Shown here: positions 9,659 to 63,530 of the stretch, piece after piece | Numbering within the stretch: position 1 is the stretch's first letter | How the letters are laid out: each line of letters starts with the position of its first letter | From: Paramesorhizobium leguminum | Lineage (GTDB): Bacteria > Pseudomonadota > Alphaproteobacteria > Rhizobiales > Rhizobiaceae | NCBI RefSeq assembly: GCF_003217235.1 | Contig: NZ_QJTF01000002.1 | Location: forward strand, 124,001-188,000 | Reading direction: 5' to 3' | Length of the DNA: 64,000 nucleotides | Made by a program: the position numbers and the translations under genes | Notes under the pieces: model-generated | Told to the model about the DNA's origin: nothing | Databases searched by the model: none | What the model saw: the letters and a program-made list of their open reading frames with translations, nothing else

Positions 9659-12331
9659 TCATTGCTTTCCCTGCTGCCCGGGAACCGTTTGCGACCCGCT
9701 GACCACCTCAGGGACGATGAGAGCCGATGTGAGGCCATGCATATCATCCAGCACCGCCACATCACTGAACCCATCACCGTTGAAATCTCCAACAACGGGC
9801 CAATAACCGTCATATTGACCCTTGATCTGCACCTTGGCCGCCATGAAGGCCCAGCGACAGCCGCTATTGATCAGAATCTTCGTTTCACGCTTACCAAGCA
9901 ACGAGGCGACGATATCCGCCCAGCCATCGTTGTTGAAATCTCCCACCGCCAGGGAAATCCCGCTTGAGGAAGTGTTTTCAAGCGGATTCGGCTTGCGCTC
10001 AAAGTTCTTGCCATCGCCGGCTCCTCGATAAAGGGCGAGCACCGCATCGCTACCCACCGCGAAATCGAGAACTCGATCGCCGTCGAAATCCGTCGCCACC
10101 ACCGAGCGGGCGTTATTCCCCGCGCCGAGATTGAATATAGCGGGATTCGATTCGAAGGCACCGTTCCCGTCGCCGAGGTACACCGACGCTCCCGTATCTC
10201 CCTCTGCTATAAGAAGGTCAGGCTTGCCGTCATTGTTGAAATCCCCGGTGGCCATTCCGGGACCCGCAGCATACGAAAAGATAAATTGGCGAGCGTTAGG
10301 CAGGTCTTGCGGAGAGCCATAAGGCCTGAATAGTCCATAGCCGTCGCCGAGATGGACTTGGAAGACGCCCTCAGCTGACGGGGAAGACGTGCTATATGTC
10401 ACGAACACGACGTCAAGATTGCCATCCCTATTGAAATCGGCAACCGCGCTTACCCCGCCGCCCCGTGTCGACGACATAACCGGAGGATCGAAGTCCCCGT
10501 TGCCCTTGCCTTGCAGGTAAATAATCTCGCCGTTGGCGTTGTTTGCCGCCTTATAGGAACCGGTGACGAGATCGAGGATGCCGTCATTATTGAAATCCCC
10601 CGTTACTGTCCCGACAATGTCGTAGATATCCGTGGGTTGGGTGTTACTATCCGTGGATTGAGAATAAAACGGATGCCACCAGGAGAAGGTGCCGTCGGTC
10701 CGGGCCAGGAAGACATTGACGGCACGTTCCGGCCTGAAGCTTGCTATCGCCAGATCACCGCGGCCGTCTTGGTTGTAATCGCCGGCGGCCATGGCTGTTA
10801 AATACCGCGAATCGCTGTGATTGGTGCTGGAACTCAGGATACGCGCTCCAGGCATCGGGGCGCCGCAATGCTCCTCGCGGTCGGTAATATATGTATACGC
10901 CGCGCGCGCGATAGCATTCCCTCCGCCATTCTCGACGACGACATCGACGGTTCCAACCTGGTGCGAAGGGGTTGTCACCGTCAATTCGGTATCCGAAATA
11001 ATCTGCAGGTCCGTCCCAGCAACCCCACCGAAAGTGACATTGCTCGTCCCAAGGAGATTCGTTCCATGGACAGTCACCTGGGTCTTTCCGTCGATCGACC
11101 CGCTCGATGGCAGTACCCCGTCCTTATTGATGGTCGAGGCCAGGGGAAGAAGGGTTATAATTGCGATGTAGCTTTTGTTATTGTCAACCTTTGTGCAGGC
11201 CAGCACCACAGCGTTGGCACCACACGGAGTGGCGATGTAGAGACGCCCGTTGTCCGGAGTTACCGCCAAGATTTCGGTGTTGGCGTTGCCGATCGGATAA
11301 AAATTATCGGAGGTGACATACCCGTGCAGCATGTCCGTTATCGTGTTCGTCGCGGTAGTGATAACGTAGCCGTTTTTGGTATTCTCAAGGTAGCCGCTTC
11401 CATCCAGAAAATATGCATTTTTTCCATCTGGCGAAAAGGTAATATCCGCCAACGGCGGGTATACTAACCCTTTCTTGACGGCTCCTGTGACCGTATCCGT
11501 AGCCACATCAACTACGAGCACCTCGCGGGAAATGTTACCGCCGTAGTCATTTGACGTAATATAGGCTTTCTTCCCATCAGGAGAAAAGCCAATCCCAAAC
11601 GGCGTTGAACCGTCCCAATTCTTGATCATTCCGGTTTGTGTATTCGTTCTTGTATCGATCACCGCTACCGCCGGGGCGTTAGGAATTGTCGCATATGCCT
11701 TGTCCCCGTTTGGAGAAACCGCGACAACCCTCATCCCCATATACCCTTTTGGGGAAGGAGGAATAAAACTTACTCCCTTCGTCGCGATATCGATCACGGC
11801 GATCCCGGGATCCGGATCACCGCTACTGCCGGTAGCGAAAGACACATAGGCGGTCTTCCCATCAGGTGAAAGCGCCATAGAGGGAATACGCAGTTGAAAA
11901 TCCGGCAAATTGATCGTGTCGGTTTGGGTGTTCGTTGCCACATCAATGACGGAGATCGACTTTGTGGAGCCAGGACCACCATTGCTAACGTACACAATTT
12001 TGCCGTCCGGTGACATAGCAATAGCAGTTGGGCCTGCTCCGATATAATTTTTCACGTAGCCCACTTGCATGTTCCGGCCAATATCGATGACAGCAATGGC
12101 GCTATCGCCATTAGGCCAACGCATCGGCTGCAGCACATACCCGACTTTGCCGTCGGGAGTAAGTGCGAATGCGAAAGGAATTTGCCCGTCGTACCCCTCG
12201 ACAATCCCAATCTGCGTATTGGCTGGTGTGGCGTATGCCGGCAACAGCGCCCCCGCCATCAGCCCCGCAGCCATGGCCCACGCCGCGACGAGCCAGCCCC
12301 AATATACTTTCGAAAAATCCTTGAAAATCAT
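9659..12331 (-). CDS. Secreted beta-propeller protein: YVTN repeats, IPT/TIG domain, FG-GAP/VCBS repeats
   Basis: 890 aa. Signal peptide about 1-35 (cleavage near AYA). Residues about 36-395 form a YVTN-type propeller with recurring ALTPDGK, AMSPDGK and FSPDGK loops. An IPT/TIG Ig-like domain follows at about 400-485 (LPSSGSIDGKTQVTVHG, VTFGG). The rest carries about seven FG-GAP motifs with calcium-loop pattern DxNxDGxxD (GDYNQDGRGD, GDFNNDGILD, ADFNRDGNLD, GDFNNDGKPD, GDFNNDGWAD, GDFNGDGFSD). ATG at 12331 with AAGGA upstream. Probably an extracellular binding or adhesion protein; the ligand is unknown. Paralogue of the next gene. Confidence 0.85.
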   Translation of the reverse strand: MIFKDFSKVYWGWLVAAWAMAAGLMAGALLPAYATPANTQIGIVEGYDGQIPFAFALTPDGKVGYVLQPMRWPNGDSAIAVIDIGRNMQVGYVKNYIGAGPTAIAMSPDGKIVYVSNGGPGSTKSISVIDVATNTQTDTINLPDFQLRIPSMALSPDGKTAYVSFATGSSGDPDPGIAVIDIATKGVSFIPPSPKGYMGMRVVAVSPNGDKAYATIPNAPAVAVIDTRTNTQTGMIKNWDGSTPFGIGFSPDGKKAYITSNDYGGNISREVLVVDVATDTVTGAVKKGLVYPPLADITFSPDGKNAYFLDGSGYLENTKNGYVITTATNTITDMLHGYVTSDNFYPIGNANTEILAVTPDNGRLYIATPCGANAVVLACTKVDNNKSYIAIITLLPLASTINKDGVLPSSGSIDGKTQVTVHGTNLLGTSNVTFGGVAGTDLQIISDTELTVTTPSHQVGTVDVVVENGGGNAIARAAYTYITDREEHCGAPMPGARILSSSTNHSDSRYLTAMAAGDYNQDGRGDLAIASFRPERAVNVFLARTDGTFSWWHPFYSQSTDSNTQPTDIYDIVGTVTGDFNNDGILDLVTGSYKAANNANGEIIYLQGKGNGDFDPPVMSSTRGGGVSAVADFNRDGNLDVVFVTYSTSSPSAEGVFQVHLGDGYGLFRPYGSPQDLPNARQFIFSYAAGPGMATGDFNNDGKPDLLIAEGDTGASVYLGDGNGAFESNPAIFNLGAGNNARSVVATDFDGDRVLDFAVGSDAVLALYRGAGDGKNFERKPNPLENTSSSGISLAVGDFNNDGWADIVASLLGKRETKILINSGCRWAFMAAKVQIKGQYDGYWPVVGDFNGDGFSDVAVLDDMHGLTSALIVPEVVSGSQTVPGQQGKQ

Positions 12332-12437
12332 TGTAATATTCCTTCAAAAATCACTCTCCACGCCTGCAAGTGGCACTCGGCGCCGCGAGCGTGCCCCGCC
12401 ATCAGGGCACGCCGCATGAGTGAGGAACTCTGCCCCG

Positions 12438-12624
12438 TTAATCCGAAACAGGTGTGATGTAGGTGTACGCGCCTTTTGCCGTGCCGTTGCCGCCCTTATT
12501 TTCCACGACAACGTCAACGGCGCCCAAATTGCCATCCTTCGACGGAGGCGTAACCACCGTCAGTTCCGTATTGGAGCCGCCGGAGGGACTGTTGGGAGTA
12601 TCCGCCACGATACCCCCGAAGGTG
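12438..12624 (-). pseudogene. Out-of-frame C-terminal end of the neighbouring YVTN/IPT gene
   Basis: On the minus strand, one frame away from the 12514-13812 gene, the sequence reads VTFGG, then TELTVVTPPS, VDVVVENKGG and GAYTYI before a TAA at 12438-12440. This is the expected second half of the IPT domain and matches the neighbour's VTVTTPS, VDVVVENGGG and AAYTYI. The frame is lost at one extra G around 12624-12625. With that base removed, one gene of 12438-13812 results. Confidence 0.8.
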
Positions 12625-13812
12625 GACGCCGGTCGTATCGAGCAGATTCTCTCCCTTGATGGTCACGATCGTCCCACCCGAAACCGCACCAGAACTCGGC
12701 AAGACCGGCGTAGTGATGACAGCGGCGGCGGGGTGCACCTGTATGACCGATACCTTGTCGGAACCGATGAAAACGACGTAAGCGACATCCCCCGCCTTAT
12801 CGGGGTCGGTATCAGGGCGAAATGCCACCCCGTTGGGATGATTGCCCTCGAATTCGTCCAGATTGACCGTGCCAGTCTGGGTGTCGCTTGTGATATCGAT
12901 CACCGACACCGAATTGGAACTATAGCTGGTCACATAGGCAATCGCCGCGTCCGGGTTGAACGCTACAACGGCAGGATTAATGCCATTGAATTTTGCGACC
13001 TCGCCCGTTTGCGTGTGATTGCTGGTTTTGATGACCGACACCGAGCTTGACCCCTGGTTGGTTACATAGGCTTTCGACCCGTCCGGAGCGAAGGCGACAT
13101 TGAGCGGAGTTGTGCCGGTATAGCCCGTAACTGGCTGGGTTTGCGCATTTGACGCAACGTCGATCACGACGACGGACAGCGCGGTCACGACATAAGCGAA
13201 TGTCCCGCTCGGTGCGAATGCCACGTCATGGGCGCCCGCGGCACCATCATAGCCGGCAACCGTGCCGGTTTGGGTGTCAGTCGATGTATCGATTATCGAT
13301 ACAGACGAGGCCGCGTCATTATTGGTCACATAGGCGACGTTCGAACCTTTGGCCGGGTTGAACGCGATGCCATAAGGGTTCGTCCCGGTGTAATTCTGGA
13401 CCGTGCTTGTCGTTGCCAGCTCGTCGGTTCTCGTGTCGATTATGGAAATCGCCGAATGCTGGTGAAGGACATATACTTTGGTCCCATCTACTTTGGTCCC
13501 ATCGGGCGTCACAGCAAGGTTGCCAGGCGAGCTGCCAGCGGGCAAGGTAATGACCTTCAGCTGCTTGTGTGTCTGAGCGTCTATTACCGACACCGTATTC
13601 GACGTGGTGTTGGGCACATATGCTTTCGACCCGTCCGGCATGAAGGCGACGCGATTTGGGCTGACGCCTTTAAATGCGGAGACGCTGGCAATCGCCCTGT
13701 TGCCTGAAGTCGCTTGCGCCGCGTCGGGGATCGCAATCACCGCTACGGCCAGCAGGCCGGCCATGGCGGTGAATATCCGCCATGATGCCGCTTTATAAAG
13801 TAACTTGTTCAT
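12514..13812 (-). CDS. Secreted YVTN beta-propeller protein, frameshifted in its C-terminal IPT domain
   Basis: 432 aa as it stands. Signal peptide about 1-35 (cleavage near AQA). A YVTN propeller covers about 40-375 with repeats such as KAYVPNTTSNTVSVIDAQT, KAYVTNQGSSSVSVIKTS and IAYVTSYSSNSVSVIDIT. An IPT domain begins at about 383 (LPSSGAVSGGTIVTIKGENLL), but after TTGV the frame leaves the family pattern and ends in unrelated Arg/Gly-rich residues. The lost half is at 12438-12624. ATG at 13812 with GGAGG. Sequencing error, recent mutation or slippage cannot be told apart here. Confidence 0.8.
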   Translation of the reverse strand: MNKLLYKAASWRIFTAMAGLLAVAVIAIPDAAQATSGNRAIASVSAFKGVSPNRVAFMPDGSKAYVPNTTSNTVSVIDAQTHKQLKVITLPAGSSPGNLAVTPDGTKVDGTKVYVLHQHSAISIIDTRTDELATTSTVQNYTGTNPYGIAFNPAKGSNVAYVTNNDAASSVSIIDTSTDTQTGTVAGYDGAAGAHDVAFAPSGTFAYVVTALSVVVIDVASNAQTQPVTGYTGTTPLNVAFAPDGSKAYVTNQGSSSVSVIKTSNHTQTGEVAKFNGINPAVVAFNPDAAIAYVTSYSSNSVSVIDITSDTQTGTVNLDEFEGNHPNGVAFRPDTDPDKAGDVAYVVFIGSDKVSVIQVHPAAAVITTPVLPSSGAVSGGTIVTIKGENLLDTTGVHLRGYRGGYSQQSLRRLQYGTDGGYASVEGWQFGRR

Positions 13813-15262: not shown

Positions 15263-15385
15263 GAGGGCAGTAGGGCAATAAGGCAGTAGGGCAATATGTT
15301 GATTGCCTTGGCTGCGCATTAATCGGATAATTTTTCCTACTGCCCTACTGCCCTACTGCCTTATTGCCTTATTCCCCTACTCCCT
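15263..15385. repeat. Octamer (AGGGCAGT/AGGCAATA) inverted array between proX and proW
   Basis: Starts four bases after the proX stop. Left arm 15263-15297 has GGGCAGTA and GGCAATA units; right arm 15336-15382 has the complementary CTACTGCC and TTATTGCC units. The arms can fold into a long imperfect hairpin. AGGGCAGT is, from memory, the unit of the hypervariable Brucella typing loci. Related arrays: 53081-53132 and 62464-62598. Confidence 0.85.
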
Positions 15386-15407
15386 CGCAAAGGAGACACA
15401 CCACCCA

Positions 15408-29930: not shown

Positions 29931-30424
29931 GCCCTCCCTCCCCCTTGCGGGGAGGGTGTCCGCGTTAGCGGACGGGTGGGGGTGGTGATGGCAAGTGGAA
30001 CGCTGAATGGCATGGAACCGATATAACCCCGCCCCGCCCAGCGCTTCCGCCGCCCATAACGCTCCGCGCTTGCGCAAGACAATGACCGACACGGAACGCC
30101 GCCTCTGGACCGCCCTGCGAAAAGAATTACCCGAAGCTATGGGTACGCATTTCCGCCGCCAGATGGCTATCGGCCCCTATGTGGCGGATTTTGTTTGTCT
30201 CGGCCATCGTCTGATCATCGAGGTCGACGGAAAAATTCATGAAGACGAAGATCAGCGTCGACACGATTTTGAACGTGAGGTCTATCTGCGGAGCCAGAAC
30301 TTCCGCATACTGCGCGTCTCCAACGCCGACGTGATGCTGGATATGCCCTCGGTACTAAACCGAATTGCAATCGCGCTTTCCGTCCGCACCCCCACCCCTA
30401 ACCCCTCCCCGCAAGGGGGAGGGG
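29931..30424. repeat. Family 2 palindromic repeat carrying a DUF559 nuclease gene between its arms
   Basis: Left arm 29931-29990 (CTCCCCCTTGCGGGGAG, then TCCGCGTTAGCGGA and GGGTGGGGGTGG) and right arm 30383-30424 (CACCCCCACCCC, then CCTCCCCGCAAGGGGGAGG) match the arms of the empty copies at 7690-7852 and 58848-58964. Here they are about 390 bp apart and enclose the DUF559 gene, whose 3' end is inside the right arm. Confidence 0.8.
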
Positions 30425-34327: not shown

Positions 34328-34342
34328 GGGCAGATATCGACC

Positions 34343-34424
34343 CCCTTCACCCTCGTGGTTCGAGGCTCGTTTCGCTTCGCTACACTCACACCTCACCATG
34401 AGGGTGAAGGGGCGGCGAGCGCTT
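34343..34424. repeat. Family 3 palindromic repeat, arm copy A'
   Basis: CCCCTTCACCCTC at about 34344 pairs with GAGGGTGAAGGGG at about 34399, enclosing GTGGTTCGAGGCTCG and a TTCGCTTCGCTAC loop. Same family as 34939-34995 and 63396-63455. First element of the 34328-34632 gene-free stretch; bases 34425-34544 between the repeats hold nothing I recognise. Confidence 0.8.
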
Positions 34425-34544: not shown

Positions 34545-34620
34545 GCATCTCAGGAGCCCTCATGGTGAGGTGCGATTGGAGCGAAGCGGAATGAGCCTCG
34601 AACCACGAGGGTGCTTGGCG
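34545..34620. repeat. Family 3 palindromic repeat, arm copy B (3' side of the GIY-YIG gene)
   Basis: Contains AGGAGCCCTCATGGTGAGG, a GAGCGAAGCGGAATGAG stretch and CTCGAACCACGAGGGTGCTT. Matches 63468-63530 nearly base for base at both ends. Ends 12 bp from the stop codon of the GIY-YIG gene. Confidence 0.8.
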
Positions 34621-34632
34621 CCAACCCCAAGA

Positions 34633-34941
34633 TCAAGGTTTGGGTATCAGATGACCGCGACGGGACAATTCAGGCAATCCCTCATAATTGAGAGCGATCA
34701 GTGCTTCCTTTTTGCGCCGCGACCAGCCTTTGATCTGTTTTTCTCGCGCAATGGCCTCTTTCACAAGATCATAAGTTTCCGAGAATACGAGTTCCACCGG
34801 CCGTCTGTTCCACGTATATGCCATTTCATCAGGCAGATGGTTATGTTCCCATATCCGGGATTCGACCGACTGTTTTGTAATGCCGGTATAGTAGCTCCCA
34901 TCGGCGCAGCGCAAAATATAGACAGTTGCTTCAACCATCAT
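34633..34941 (-). CDS. GIY-YIG nuclease-domain protein inside a family 3 repeat
   Basis: 102 aa (UPF0213/YhbQ-like). GIY-YIG pattern: VYILRCADG and YYTGIT, Arg in SVESRIWEHN (about R29), and metal-site Glu in EAIAREKQIKGW (about E67). Two adjacent ATGs at 34941 and 34938; the second gives MVEATVYIL. The upstream GGACGAGGGGC, the only Shine-Dalgarno-like sequence, lies within the family 3 palindrome 34939-34995, whose end includes the start codon. A much longer minus-strand frame continues upstream against RACo and is not real. Likely cuts structured DNA; role unknown. Confidence 0.82.
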   Translation of the reverse strand: MMVEATVYILRCADGSYYTGITKQSVESRIWEHNHLPDEMAYTWNRRPVELVFSETYDLVKEAIAREKQIKGWSRRKKEALIALNYEGLPELSRRGHLIPKP

Positions 34942-34995
34942 GCCCCTCGTCCTTCGAGGCTCGCTACGCTCGCACCTCAGGATGAGGGGCATGAT
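34939..34995. repeat. Family 3 palindromic repeat, arm copy A (5' side of the GIY-YIG gene)
   Basis: CATGCCCCTCGTCCTT (34939-34954) is the inverse of AGGATGAGGGGCATG (34979-34993), with a CTCGCTACGCTCG centre. The outer CAT is the GIY-YIG start codon on the minus strand. Matches the left part of 63396-63455. Confidence 0.85.
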
Positions 34996-38317: not shown

Positions 38318-39033
38318 GCCACATCCTGCTGGAAGTCTGTGTCGATGATGCCGAAGGGCTGGAAGCGGCGATCGAAGGCGGCGCCGACCGCATCGAGCTT
38401 TGCTCCGCGCTGCAACTGGGCGGCCTCACCCCCTCGCCCAGCCTCATCGCCCTTGCGTCACTGGCAACGATCCCAGTCTATGCGATGATCCGCCCGCGCG
38501 CGGGGGATTTCGTCTATACGGACCGCGAGATCGAGCAGATGCAATATGATATCTATGCCGCGCGCGCGGCGGGCCTCGCTGGCGTGGTGTTCGGCGCCAG
38601 CCGCCCCGACGGCAATCTTGATCCTCACGCGCTTGAGCAACTCATGCGCGAGACAGACGGCCTCGGCACGACACTCCACCGCGCTTTCGATCTGGTGCCG
38701 TATATCGATGAAGCTGTACGCATTGCCATCGACACCGGCTTCGGGCGCATCCTCACGTCGGGTCGGGCAAGGACAGCGCTGGAAGGTTTGGATGATCTGG
38801 AAAAAGCATTCGCTGCGGCGGACGGTAAAATCTCGATCATGCCTGGTTCCGGACTGACGGCGGAGAATGTAGAAACGTTGTTGTCTCGCCTGCCCGTAAC
38901 CGAGGTGCACGCCTCATGTGGCGTTGCTCTACCGTCAAGGGAAGGAAATATAGTTCGCCTTGGTTTTGAGGACGGCCTGCGGCGAAAGACTGACAAACAT
39001 CGGGTGGCGGCGCTTAAGCGAAAGCTTCTTTAA
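38314..39033 (+). CDS. cutC: CutC family protein
   Basis: 239 aa TIM-barrel protein: LLEVCVDDAEGLEAAIEGGA, RIELCSALQLGGLTPS, IPVYAMIRPRAGDFVY, GVVFGASRPDGNLD, ILTSGRARTALEG. CutC was linked to copper tolerance in E. coli; the true reaction is uncertain. ATG at 38314 within the end of the ROK gene. The longer frame upstream is a shadow of the kinase gene. Confidence 0.9.
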   Translation: MSHILLEVCVDDAEGLEAAIEGGADRIELCSALQLGGLTPSPSLIALASLATIPVYAMIRPRAGDFVYTDREIEQMQYDIYAARAAGLAGVVFGASRPDGNLDPHALEQLMRETDGLGTTLHRAFDLVPYIDEAVRIAIDTGFGRILTSGRARTALEGLDDLEKAFAAADGKISIMPGSGLTAENVETLLSRLPVTEVHASCGVALPSREGNIVRLGFEDGLRRKTDKHRVAALKRKLL

Positions 39034-39079
39034 ATACAGATAGTTGTTGCTATTATCAGACTCAAAACGATAAGCGTTT

Positions 39080-39265
39080 CCGCGCTTCCTCTCACCCTCC
39101 TCTGGCTTGCCAGCCATCTCCCCCTCAAGGGGGGAGATTACGCCTTCACAGGCGTATATACCAATCGCCAACGTTGCAGAATAAGAACCGTCATTGATGA
39201 CAGCCAATCTCCCCCCTTGAGGGGGAGATGCCCGGCAGGGCAGAGGGGGGTGAGAGGAAGCGCGG
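39080..39265. repeat. Family 1 palindromic repeat, copy 7, with perfect inverted flanks
   Basis: Core 39093-39252. The 18-bp flank CCGCGCTTCCTCTCACCC on the left is perfectly inverted on the right (GGGTGAGAGGAAGCGCGG, to 39265). This flank is different from that of copy 4, so the outer arms are locus-specific. Left sub-hairpin GGCT-TGCC-AGCC, right GCCC-GGCA-GGGC. Confidence 0.9.
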
Positions 39266-53080: not shown

Positions 53081-53132
53081 GGCAATATAAATATATTGCC
53101 TTATTCCCCTACTGCCCTACTGCCCTACTGCC
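53081..53132. repeat. Octamer (CTACTGCC) array with adjoining hairpin
   Basis: GGCAATAT (53081-53088) pairs with ATATTGCC (53093-53100), then TTATTCCC and three CTACTGCC units run up to 53132, directly against the TAA of the gene ending at 53133. Same repeat family as 15263-15385 and 62464-62598. Confidence 0.8.
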
Positions 53133-53396
53133 TTAATTGATCTTCGCCTTGCCGCCTGTAATCTCGATGGTCTCGCTGCCCGTCAGCGCCTGACGGTCGC
53201 CATTGGGAAAGGTGACGAAGCAGCCGGAAGGGCAAAAATCCACCGTTTCGCTCGGCGCGATGACCAGATCGCTCTTGGTCGACCCTTCTGTGACGACAAG
53301 GGTGCGCGGCTCGCTGTCCTTATTGACGGCGCTGGCTGCCAGCGCGGCGCTGGAACCGATTGTGGCCAGAAGCAAAACGGTTGCAAATCTCTTCAT
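53133..53396 (-). CDS. Small secreted protein of unknown function
   Basis: 87 aa from the ATG at 53396 (GGGAACGAA before it). Signal peptide about 1-21 (MKRFATVLLLATIGSSAALA). The mature part has DLVIAPSETVDFCPSGCFVTFPNGD, with two Cys four residues apart that could form a disulfide or bind metal, and ends GSETIEITGGKAKIN. I know no functional assignment. It resembles other small periplasmic proteins of Brucellaceae. Confidence 0.75.
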   Translation of the reverse strand: MKRFATVLLLATIGSSAALAASAVNKDSEPRTLVVTEGSTKSDLVIAPSETVDFCPSGCFVTFPNGDRQALTGSETIEITGGKAKIN

Positions 53397-61906: not shown

Positions 61907-62458
61907 ATGACGACGACATTGATCATACCCGGCTACCGGGGCTCGGAATCCGATCATTGGCAGCGCCAATGGCTTCTCGACGATTCTTCCGCGAAAGTGG
62001 TCGAGCAGGAAGACTGGGAAAATCCGGTCCTGTCCGATTGGCTGTATGTGCTGGAAGCGCATCTCGCCGAACATCCCGGCAGCGTCCTGGTGGCGCACAG
62101 CCTCGGCTGCGTGTTGGTCGCCCATCTGGCGAACCGCCCGGCGGCGGCGCACGTGGCGGGCGCTTTGCTCGTCGCCCCGGCCGATAGCGAGAAGATGACG
62201 CGGCAGGACCGGATATTCGCAAGCTTCACGCCGCTGCCCCGCCAGCCATTCCCCTTCCCTTCCATCGTCGTCGCCAGCCGCAACGATGAATATATGAGCT
62301 TCGCCAAGGCTCAGGCTCTCGCCGATGTCTGGGGTTCCGGCTTTGTCGATCTTGGCCGCGCCGGCCATATCAACCCCGCAAGCGGCTTCGGCTATTGGCC
62401 GGAGGGCATGATCCTCACCTCTTCCTTCCGCCAGCGCACCTTGATCGCAGCGGAGTGA
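61907..62458 (+). CDS. RBBP9/YdeN-family alpha/beta hydrolase
   Basis: 183 aa. MTTTLIIPGYRGSESDHWQ, nucleophile elbow VAHSLGC (Ser), VVASRNDEYMSFAKA with the acidic residue, and GRAGHINPASGFGYWPEG with the catalytic His. The complete triad is visible. ATG at 61907 after GAGGAAA. Serine hydrolase of unknown substrate. An octamer array begins six bases after its stop. Confidence 0.88.
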   Translation: MTTTLIIPGYRGSESDHWQRQWLLDDSSAKVVEQEDWENPVLSDWLYVLEAHLAEHPGSVLVAHSLGCVLVAHLANRPAAAHVAGALLVAPADSEKMTRQDRIFASFTPLPRQPFPFPSIVVASRNDEYMSFAKAQALADVWGSGFVDLGRAGHINPASGFGYWPEGMILTSSFRQRTLIAAE

Positions 62459-62463
62459 GAAAT

Positions 62464-62598
62464 TAGGGCAGTAGGGCAGTAGGGCAGTAGGGCAGTAGGG
62501 CAGTAGGGCAGTAGGAGAATATCGAGATTCGGTCAAAGGCAATTAAACATACTGCCTTATAAACATACTGCCTTATTGCCCTACTGCCTTACTGCCCT
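62464..62598. repeat. Octamer (AGGGCAGT) tandem array with inverted partner
   Basis: Six perfect AGGGCAGT units in a row at 62464-62515. About 40 bp later (62549-62598) come inverted units ACTGCCTT, ATTGCCCT and ACTGCCTT. The right part overlaps the last codons and stop of cysW. It is the longest array in the window and a probable VNTR. Confidence 0.9.
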
Positions 62599-63477
62599 CT
62601 CCAGAATATACTTGAGCACCAATGTCAAAAGCGCGATGACTGCCAGCGTCGAGGCGGCGGCGAAGGCACCGACGGTGTTGTAATCATTGAACAGCAGTTC
62701 CACTTGCAGCGGCAATGTATTCGTCTTGCCCCTGATAGCGCCGGAGACGATGGATGTCGCGCCGAATTCCCCCATCACCCGCGCATTGCAAAGCACCGCG
62801 CCATAGAGCAGCGCCCATTTGATATTGGGCAAGGTGATGTAGAAGAAAGTCTGCAGGCCGGTCGCGCCAAGCGAAATCGCCGCCTCCTCGTCGTCGCTAC
62901 CCTGCACCTCCATCAGCGGAATGAGTTCACGCGCGACGAACGGACAGGTCACGAACAGGCTGACCAGAAAGATCGCCGGGACGGTGAACATGATCCTGAT
63001 GTCATGCGCCTCCAGAAACGGTCCGAGCAGGCCCTGCGACCCGTAGAGGAACAGATAGATGACGCCGGCCACGATGGGCGAGACGGAAAACGGGATTTCC
63101 ACAAAGGTAATGAGCAGCCGCCGCCCCGGAAAGCGGAACCGCGTCACCAGCCACGCGACGCAGATGCCGAACACCATGTTAACAGGCACGACGACGATGG
63201 CGGTGAGAACAGTGAGCCAGATTGCGTGTAGCGTCGAAGGTTCGGTGATCTGCCCCCAGAACACCCCGATCCCGCTGCCGAAGGCATAGGTAAAGATCAC
63301 CGCCAGCGGCACGCCGAGGAAGAGCGCCGAAAGCGCGATGGCAAGGAGGACCAGCGCCACCTGCCACGGGCCGCGCTTCGTTGTCTGGCGAGTCCCTTCA
63401 CCCCCATCCTTCGAGGCTCGCTTCGCTCGCACCTCAGGATGAGGGTGAAGGGGCACCGGCGTTACAGGAGCCCTCAT
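62581..63477 (-). CDS. cysW: Sulfate/thiosulfate ABC transporter permease CysW, with repeat-encoded ends
   Basis: 298 aa. Six-segment permease from about residue 38 (WQVALVLLAIALSALFLGVPLAVIF), with EEAAISLGATGLQTFFYITLPNIKWALLYG as ATPase-contact loop and NARVMGEFGATSIVSG. Residues 1-27 (MRAPVTPVPLHPHPEVRAKR) are the translation of a family 3 palindrome, and the last residues RAVRQ come from the octamer array. No other in-frame ATG lies near the family's usual start, so the repeat appears to supply the start codon. Follows cysT on the same strand. Confidence 0.88.
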   Translation of the reverse strand: MRAPVTPVPLHPHPEVRAKRASKDGGEGTRQTTKRGPWQVALVLLAIALSALFLGVPLAVIFTYAFGSGIGVFWGQITEPSTLHAIWLTVLTAIVVVPVNMVFGICVAWLVTRFRFPGRRLLITFVEIPFSVSPIVAGVIYLFLYGSQGLLGPFLEAHDIRIMFTVPAIFLVSLFVTCPFVARELIPLMEVQGSDDEEAAISLGATGLQTFFYITLPNIKWALLYGAVLCNARVMGEFGATSIVSGAIRGKTNTLPLQVELLFNDYNTVGAFAAASTLAVIALLTLVLKYILERAVRQ

Positions 63478-63530
63478 GGTGAGGTGCGCCCCGAAGGGGA
63501 GCCTCGAACCACGAGGGCGCTTGGCGCTTC
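63396..63530. repeat. Family 3 palindromic repeat, empty copy, at the cysT-cysW junction
   Basis: Part A (63396-63455): CCTTCACCCCCATCCTTCG, GAGGCTCGCTTCGCTCGCACC, CAGGATGAGGGTGAAGG. Part B (63468-63530): AGGAGCCCTCATGGTGAGG, GCCCCGAAGGGG, CTCGAACCACGAGGGCGCTT. Only about 12 bp separate A and B, whereas at 34.5-35.0 kb the same parts enclose a GIY-YIG gene. The minus-strand start and first codons of cysW lie inside. Confidence 0.85.

Follow-up and report, generated by a model that had tools for sequence, protein, structure and literature searches.

In the REP/RAYT systems (REPtrons and REPINs, with TnpA-REP), the chromosomal gene of an enzyme, the REP-associated tyrosine transposase (RAYT), is flanked by copies of a repetitive extragenic palindromic (REP) hairpin, many further copies of which are dispersed without the enzyme, often as inverted dimers, and in some genomes the repeats outlive the gene. 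We describe a comparable arrangement in a stretch of 64,000 nucleotides from Paramesorhizobium leguminum (contig NZ_QJTF01000002.1, positions 124,001 to 188,000; hereafter the window), where the gene of a small standalone GIY-YIG nuclease stands among hairpin repeats designated A, B, and B'. Unlike the RAYT, its product is not an HUH tyrosine transposase of the IS200/IS605 type, PF01541 being its only Pfam match, and the hairpin differs from the GTAG REPs in its GAG/TCGA core and in its lack of the GTAG tag. The association of nuclease and hairpin is general across phyla and makes the nuclease a strong candidate enzyme for the spread or maintenance of the repeats.

According to the excerpted 2013 account of Di Nocera and co-workers (PMC3733652), the CGTC REPs (CGTC-1 to CGTC-4, including Neisseria dRS3 and Rickettsia RPE-4 and RPE-6) are, like the window repeats, short hairpins that form head-to-head dimers and abound in alphaproteobacteria; their stem starts with AT, their tail is CCA, and no transposase appears to be dedicated to them. 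The window repeats, in contrast, have neither the CGTC tag nor the AT stem start nor the CCA tail. The nuclease shares its small single domain with the UPF0213 or standalone prokaryotic Slx1-like proteins (PDB entries 1zg2 and 1ywl; Escherichia coli YhbQ), but no such hairpin lies within 600 bp of E. coli yhbQ. In its excerpted sections, the 2006 superfamily analysis (PMC1564403) describes the inheritance of the standalone prokaryotic Slx1-like proteins as largely vertical and traces the selfish members to the UvrC lineage; those sections describe no repeat partner for the UPF0213/Slx1-like proteins, and the string "palindrom" is absent from the text of the paper. An excerpt of a further paper assigns YhbQ and YazA to the Slx1 family (PMC7017083). 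Like the GIY-YIG homing endonucleases of the I-TevI and I-BmoI type, the window nuclease is linked to selfish-looking DNA; unlike them, it has no added DNA-binding domain of the NUMOD type in Pfam, and its gene is free-standing and intergenic rather than intron-borne. Rhizobial intergenic mosaic elements (RIME) and the Brucella Bru-RS are palindromic intergenic repeats of related bacteria for which we know of no enzyme, and the window repeat family may overlap with either. Among the matches listed in a search of the open-licence PMC literature, preprints excluded, no paper tied GIY-YIG, UPF0213, YhbQ, or DUF559 nucleases to palindromic repeats by title or opening abstract, and none was found for the repeat sequence itself.

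Association of one nuclease clade with one hairpin core

The repeats share the signature TCA-NNN-TGAG-loop-TCGAA-N'N'N', in which the GAG/TCGA core is common and the stem bases vary yet remain complementary. Its linkage to the nuclease was assessed at loci picked by protein similarity alone. The window protein has 34 close relatives (64-100% identity) in 33 of 247 genomes of its family, the gene being nearly single-copy, while 27 further genomes have weaker matches only and one has a fragment. An alignment of 12 subfamily proteins, scanned against GTDB genomes, recovered 581 relatives, the best 80 of which were used; their titles cover Alphaproteobacteria, Bacteroidota, Nitrospinota, Nitrospirota, Patescibacteria, Chloroflexi, Actinomycetota, and further groups, and many belong to metagenome-assembled genomes. 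After removal of 12 of 110 loci whose gene DNA was identical to that of another, 98 unique loci of this clade (clade 1) remained, one set being mainly Hyphomicrobiales (L034-L105) and the other carrying titles that are not alphaproteobacterial in 28 of 38 cases (L106-L143). To these were added the best 30 loci, one per genome, of 75 Flavobacteriales genomes with a match among 246 (one locus, L191, is the same gene as L120 of the other set) and, as controls, 40 of 46 weaker GIY-YIG places, mostly of another clade, with L146 a truncated clade-1 remnant.

Hairpins are concentrated around the gene in every clade-1 sample. At the 30 best family loci, 93 hairpins lie within 400 bp of the gene (23.4 kb) against 4 at 500-1500 bp (52 kb), and 29 of these loci have one within 300 bp; the exception, L045, has no upstream hairpin, and its downstream side is lost at a contig end. 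The TGAG/TCGAA motif adjoins 54 of 63 close homologues (161 near occurrences in 37.2 kb versus 7 far ones in 228 kb), 33 of 35 distant homologues (84 in 20.7 kb versus 10 in 157 kb), and 25 of 30 Flavobacteriales genes, and is near the gene in none of the 40 control loci; seven control cores reach at most 3 loci, and entering the reverse complement reproduces the signal, as expected. The initial annotation had proposed surveying GIY-YIG genes for flanking hairpins. Such a survey with the GAG/TCGA core, requiring a five-base complementary stem within 300 bp of the gene, recovers a hairpin at 51/60 loci of the Hyphomicrobiales-dominated set, 36/38 of the distant set, and 30/30 Flavobacteriales loci versus 1/40 controls, whereas 71 permuted cores peak at 7/60, 6/38, 5/30, and 6/40, respectively. 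With a looser stem the counts rise to 97/98 clade-1 and 30/30 Flavobacteriales loci versus 3/40 controls, at the price of a higher far-flank background (214 in 385 kb) and of matches at 4/29 loci of DUF559 nucleases. The ratio of near to far density ranges from about 9 for the loosest motif up to 141. Both of the only named plasmid-collection records with a match, from Methylobacterium and Sphingomonas, have the hairpin. The 60 loci fall into 28 neighbourhood clusters, likely an overcount given flanks of 1.5-3 kb that are shorter at contig ends.

Architecture of the window locus

The features are collected in Table 1. The earlier claim that A and B hairpins bracket a 102-residue GIY-YIG gene is confirmed, as are two finer points. 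The arm B palindrome proper spans 34557-34613, and its outer bases bring it to about 34620, 12 bp from the nuclease stop codon. The arm A palindrome, with arms of 17 nt, terminates on the minus strand in GAGGGGC-ATGATGG, which places a Shine-Dalgarno-like GAGGGG and both candidate ATG codons inside it. To these we add a third arm, B' (inverted-repeat extent 34348-34404), which is inverted relative to B and forms its head-to-head partner. The order is thus B', B, gene, A, the tails of B and A pointing to the gene.

TABLE 1 Coordinates of the nuclease gene, its hairpin arms, and the related dimer in the window
Feature	Position	Strand	Basis
GIY-YIG nuclease gene, 102 residues, standalone	34633-34941	-	open reading frame, Pfam, motif conservation in homologues
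Hairpin repeat B' with outer CCCCTTCACCC stem, core 34356-34398	34342-34412	-	inverted repeats, hairpin scan
Hairpin repeat B, core 34563-34605, GGT/ACC stem type	34557-34620	+	inverted repeats, hairpin scan
Hairpin repeat A, core 34950-34982, CCT/AGG stem type	34937-34995	-	palindrome, hairpin scan
Nuclease-free head-to-head dimer A(-)/B(+), same repeat family as the gene arms	63392-63530	.	hairpin scan

The initial annotation had further taken the gene to lie inside a single A/B element of the kind found at 63.4 kb. A and B are indeed adjacent there, A(-) at 63407-63439 followed by B(+) at 63477-63511, with outer ends about 17 nt apart by our reading and 12 by that of the initial annotation. 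The heads of the hairpins face each other in that dimer, whereas at the gene the order is opposite and B and A turn their tails towards it. A 63.4-kb-type element split by the gene is rejected on this hairpin orientation; the gene instead adjoins repeat dimers.

The A core has 2 matches in the window versus 0 in 100 shuffles, and the B half-site CCCTCATGGTGAGGTGCG has 5 at up to 3 mismatches (2 of them the A arms) versus 0.05 expected. One A half-site, ACCTCAGGATGAGGG, matches 49 times genome-wide at up to 1 mismatch (3.73 Mb, 67 contigs), and its reversed control does not match at all. Folded as DNA with standard parameters, arm A forms the hairpin (z -3.06) and arm B an alternative fold (z -2.08); known RNA families gave one sub-threshold match only in the locus region.

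At the orthologous site, the gene is accompanied by at least one arm in all five orthologues compared (G000, G247, G050, and two Hoeflea; G050, L035/L065, has no upstream arm A), and the case named earlier as potentially refuting, a same-locus orthologue with no flanking repeat, does not occur among them. The comparison with empty sites, likewise proposed, found gene and arms jointly absent from the relatives G248, G142, and G206, the last of which (L187) has another palindrome family there, of the CCCCCTCTGGC/ATCTCCCCC type. The 63.4-kb dimer is absent from the orthologous site in 5/5 same-genus relatives. Spread on plasmids or viruses as the main route is rejected, the gene being found in 2 of 72,556 plasmid records and, as one partial relative, among viral contigs.

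Elsewhere in the window, short arrays of an 8-bp unit (CTACTGCC/AGGGCAGT) lie at 15264-15392, 53085-53156, and 62449-62612, and positions 11411-13650 hold repeated coding segments that resemble those of a repeat-rich protein, perhaps of propeller type, at a guess.

Polarity and fold of the repeats

The signature reads on one strand, giving the repeats a polarity. Inspection of 30 distant-locus flanks revealed the same core on other stems, in which the base triplet preceding GAG and its complement are CCT/AGG, GGT/ACC, ACT/AGT, GCT/AGC, or GTT/AAC, and the commonest hairpin flank is TCA, with no GTAG tag at the hairpin base. Pairing within the core would set G.A and A.G as tandem mismatches next to a G-C pair. 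The long loops often read GCGAGCGAAGCGAGC, which contains GCGAAGC; this heptamer forms an exceptionally stable DNA mini-hairpin. The five Flavobacteriales loci that do not have TGAG/TCGAA carry CGAG/TCGAG instead, a compensatory change.

Covariation was measured in 46 distinct gene-proximal hairpins picked by core and loop length, with no stem filter, over six pairs, two of which are fixed by the motif, and was compared with 500 shuffles and with slid versions. Stem cells pair in 98.2% of cases versus 78.8% in shuffles, two-sided stem changes number 51 versus 13.7, and the covariation score is 0.49 versus 0.12, a value that 0 of 500 shuffles reach and the slid versions do not approach (at most 0.19). 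The covariation indicates that the fold matters, and it does not distinguish a DNA fold from an RNA fold.

As a rule, though not without exception, the gene stands towards the tails of the repeats: in gene orientation and over three sets summed, the nearest upstream hairpin is plus in 77/98 loci having one, and the nearest downstream hairpin is minus in 67/102. Start codons located inside an arm, as noted for the window gene, are not a general feature: the upstream hairpin comes to within 15 nt of the first aligned codon in 18/128 loci and to within 30 nt in 43/128. The nuclease stop codon lies in or against a repeat in 29/128 loci (L048, L052, L053, L060, L086, and L094 among them), so that the C-terminus can be partly repeat encoded.

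The nuclease

PF01541 is matched with an E value of 3.8e-14, above the cut-off, and a profile search of PDB at E values up to 0.01 returned solely the UPF0213 structures 1zg2 (E 2.5e-15) and 1ywl (E 2.5e-11). The motif residues are almost invariant in homologues (Y7 127/127, Y17 126/127, R28 125/127, H32 127/127, and E66 127/127), and we take Y7, Y17, R28, and E66 to be the catalytic residues known from I-TevI and UvrC. The gene is under purifying selection, with a ratio of nonsynonymous to synonymous substitution rates (dN/dS) of 0.03-0.10 in 5 pairs. Curated NCBIfam models supply no name for 3 of the proteins. A defence-system gene was considered and rejected, a PADLOC search yielding no match for 2 proteins.

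The window genome has three GIY-YIG matches, namely, this gene, a member of another clade (L001, 108-110 residues), and a 712-residue open frame that is probably UvrC. One Flavobacteriales genome has two equal-scoring gene copies 0.9 kb apart (L192; G397:C18:37970-38263 and 38878-39171) and another, G317, has nine GIY-YIG matches, which are possible cases of gene amplification. The clade-1 gene of Sphingomonas parapaucimobilis shares 4 bp with an annotated RNA methyltransferase gene (L273:1486-2534); methyltransferase neighbours and fusions of Slx1-like proteins are mentioned in the excerpted text of PMC1564403.

Repeat copies and the presence of the gene

Nuclease-free copies occur mainly in genomes with the gene. 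Over the 247 family genomes, the median number of pattern matches is 24 in the 33 that have a close gene and 0 in the 214 that do not, and at least five copies are present in 29/33 gene-bearing versus 25/214 other genomes (Fisher 9e-19, ignoring relatedness). Where a genus contains genomes of both kinds, the gene-bearing ones have the higher count in 19/20 genera (p 4e-5). A similar picture emerges from 30 of the 38 genomes behind the distant loci, searched with one loop type: TGAGCNTGTCGAA is present in 28/30, with 5 to 110 copies in 21 and 1-3 in 7, against at most one match per genome for a control pattern. Gene-bearing units may plausibly have given rise to the nuclease-free copies, as had been suggested.

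Parallel nuclease-palindrome systems

The suggestion that such loci form a general class of nuclease-bearing palindromic elements holds for three nuclease groups and three palindrome types. The control loci belong mainly to a second GIY-YIG clade (YVYILASKRNGTLYTGVTSDL type), which is separated from clade 1 by one tree branch with a local support of 100, in a tree of few columns and with many forks unresolved. Hairpins of the CGTC type, tested as TCAT...ATCC with each stem and loop length tried, lie within 300 bp of the gene at 26/40 control loci versus 2/98 clade-1 and 0/30 Flavobacteriales loci. Around the control genes there are 75 near occurrences per 24 kb versus 7 far per 86 kb, five control tag sets give 0, and a narrower CGTC pattern still finds 13/40 loci. 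The second-clade gene of the window genome, which lies outside the window (L001, G000:C2:238239-238460), has a GGATCCTCGGGTCAAGCCCGAGGATGACG palindrome pair upstream.

DUF559 nucleases, which the initial annotation had cited as a parallel, indeed behave alike in related genomes. Of 101 genomes searched, 62 matched; the best 30 loci, one per genome, were taken (L242-L271, a set that excludes the window's own DUF559 gene), and 29 were testable. At every one of the 29, a palindrome lies no more than 350 bp away (66 near in 20.3 kb versus 17 far in 52.2 kb). A C-rich/G-rich motif of the TCTCCCC/GGGGAGA type occurs 46 times near the gene, in 25 loci, versus 2 times far from it. The DUF559 gene of the window lies at 30052-30378 (+). 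The second GIY-YIG clade with the CGTC REPs and DUF559 with the TCTCCCC/GGGGAGA palindromes appear to be parallel systems. There is perhaps an even chance that the two GIY-YIG clades and DUF559, the latter of an unrelated fold, are each the dedicated enzyme of a widespread palindrome superfamily of their own.

A probable cognate nuclease of REP-like repeats and the alternatives

We consider it likely, on balance, that the GIY-YIG gene encodes the cognate nuclease of a REP-like hairpin family, in a RAYT-like partnership in which an Slx1-like nuclease acts on its own repeats. The starting point, which is observed, is a nuclease gene, nearly single-copy in the family of the window and under purifying selection, beside a few hairpins whose tails mostly point to it, with many nuclease-free copies, often inverted dimers, elsewhere. 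The protein would recognise the folded hairpin, with its tandem G.A mismatches beside a G-C pair, and cut DNA at the hairpin or next to it. GIY-YIG enzymes act by hydrolysis and hence would form no covalent intermediate of the HUH type, which makes a RAYT-like covalent strand transfer unlikely and repair-coupled copying the natural alternative. Breaks or nicks at hairpins, for example, on single-stranded DNA at replication forks, might then be mended by the host in a manner that copies dimers elsewhere, comparable to what RAYTs are thought to do for the GTAG REPs, while the gene and its flanking repeats would move or be transferred as a unit more rarely.

Several observations weigh against this proposal. 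When the 4 gene-flanking copies are subtracted, the gene-bearing genomes are higher in 15 genera, lower in 4, and tied in 1 (p 0.019). At least 10 copies are present in 20/214 genomes that have no close gene, and none of these 20 yielded an intact close gene in a looser search, implying either that repeats can outlive the gene or that the gene was lost in assembly gaps; one of them, G192, has a possible 34-residue remnant with two stops (E 0.19) that may be due to chance, and G122, which is not repeat rich, has a 39-residue fragment. Conversely, some gene-bearing genomes have almost no copies (1 in G088, 2 in G139, and 4 in G041), and 9/30 distant-locus genomes have 0-3 copies of the loop type searched. 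Empty sites exist, but 10-15% divergence blurs their junctions, and neither a target-site duplication nor a clean excision is readable. The stem pairs with two-sided change number 3, which 390/500 shuffles match, and hairpin orientation is not strict across loci. Finally, what is observed is linkage, from which we infer cleavage and mobilisation, and association alone cannot separate a mobilising from a processing enzyme.

The main rivals are a processing-only role and control of expression by the arms. The nuclease might trim or resolve cruciforms and hairpins formed by the repeats as a form of Slx1-like housekeeping and stay close to them for being required there, the repeats themselves spreading by another route. 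Such a role would accord with the strong purifying selection on the gene, with the RefSeq name of E. coli YhbQ, DNA damage response nuclease, and with the nearest solved relatives being standalone UPF0213 proteins, classed with the Slx1 lineage (PMC1564403 and PMC7017083, both in excerpt); we nevertheless regard it as unlikely, since it leaves unexplained both the bracketing of the gene by repeats in many neighbourhoods and the pairing of different nuclease clades with different palindromes. It is less probable still that the hairpins are attenuators or terminators of nuclease expression to which the dispersed copies are functionally unrelated. The Shine-Dalgarno-like stretch and start codons in arm A of the window point that way, together with the loci in which an upstream hairpin comes to within 30 nt of the first aligned codon or the stop codon meets a hairpin. 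However, most upstream arms are farther off, arms stand on both sides of the gene, and dozens to hundreds of gene-free copies tracking the presence of the gene would not be predicted. Regulation and mobility can both be true together.

That another transposase moves the repeats, with the GIY-YIG gene as cargo trapped between two copies, is very improbable: the absence of the gene from some repeat-rich genomes would fit, and otherwise nothing specific does, whereas random cargo would not keep the same clade with the same core across phyla and a sister clade with another palindrome, and the gene is rare on plasmids and viral contigs. A chance juxtaposition, or an insertion hot spot at which common repeats happen to adjoin the gene, can be dismissed almost with certainty; repeats are certainly common in some genomes, the general hairpin pattern matching 103 times in that of the window, but the near/far ratios, the shuffles, the permuted cores, and the control loci refute it.

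Implications for palindromic repeats and Slx1-like nucleases

Many bacterial genomes contain short palindromic repeats, of which the GTAG type has an assigned enzyme in the RAYT. The link of nuclease clades to palindrome cores across phyla names candidate enzymes together with their likely recognition core, and proteins of only some 100 residues would suffice to test the origin and spread of the repeats. Standalone Slx1-like nucleases are moreover brought beside selfish-looking DNA. If the two GIY-YIG clades and DUF559 are each the dedicated enzyme of their own palindrome superfamily, this would supply the missing enzyme of the CGTC REPs, and likewise that of the TTCGACAAGCTCA-type repeats seen here in several phyla, and would add to transposases and homing endonucleases a third way for a nuclease to keep a population of selfish DNA in bacteria.
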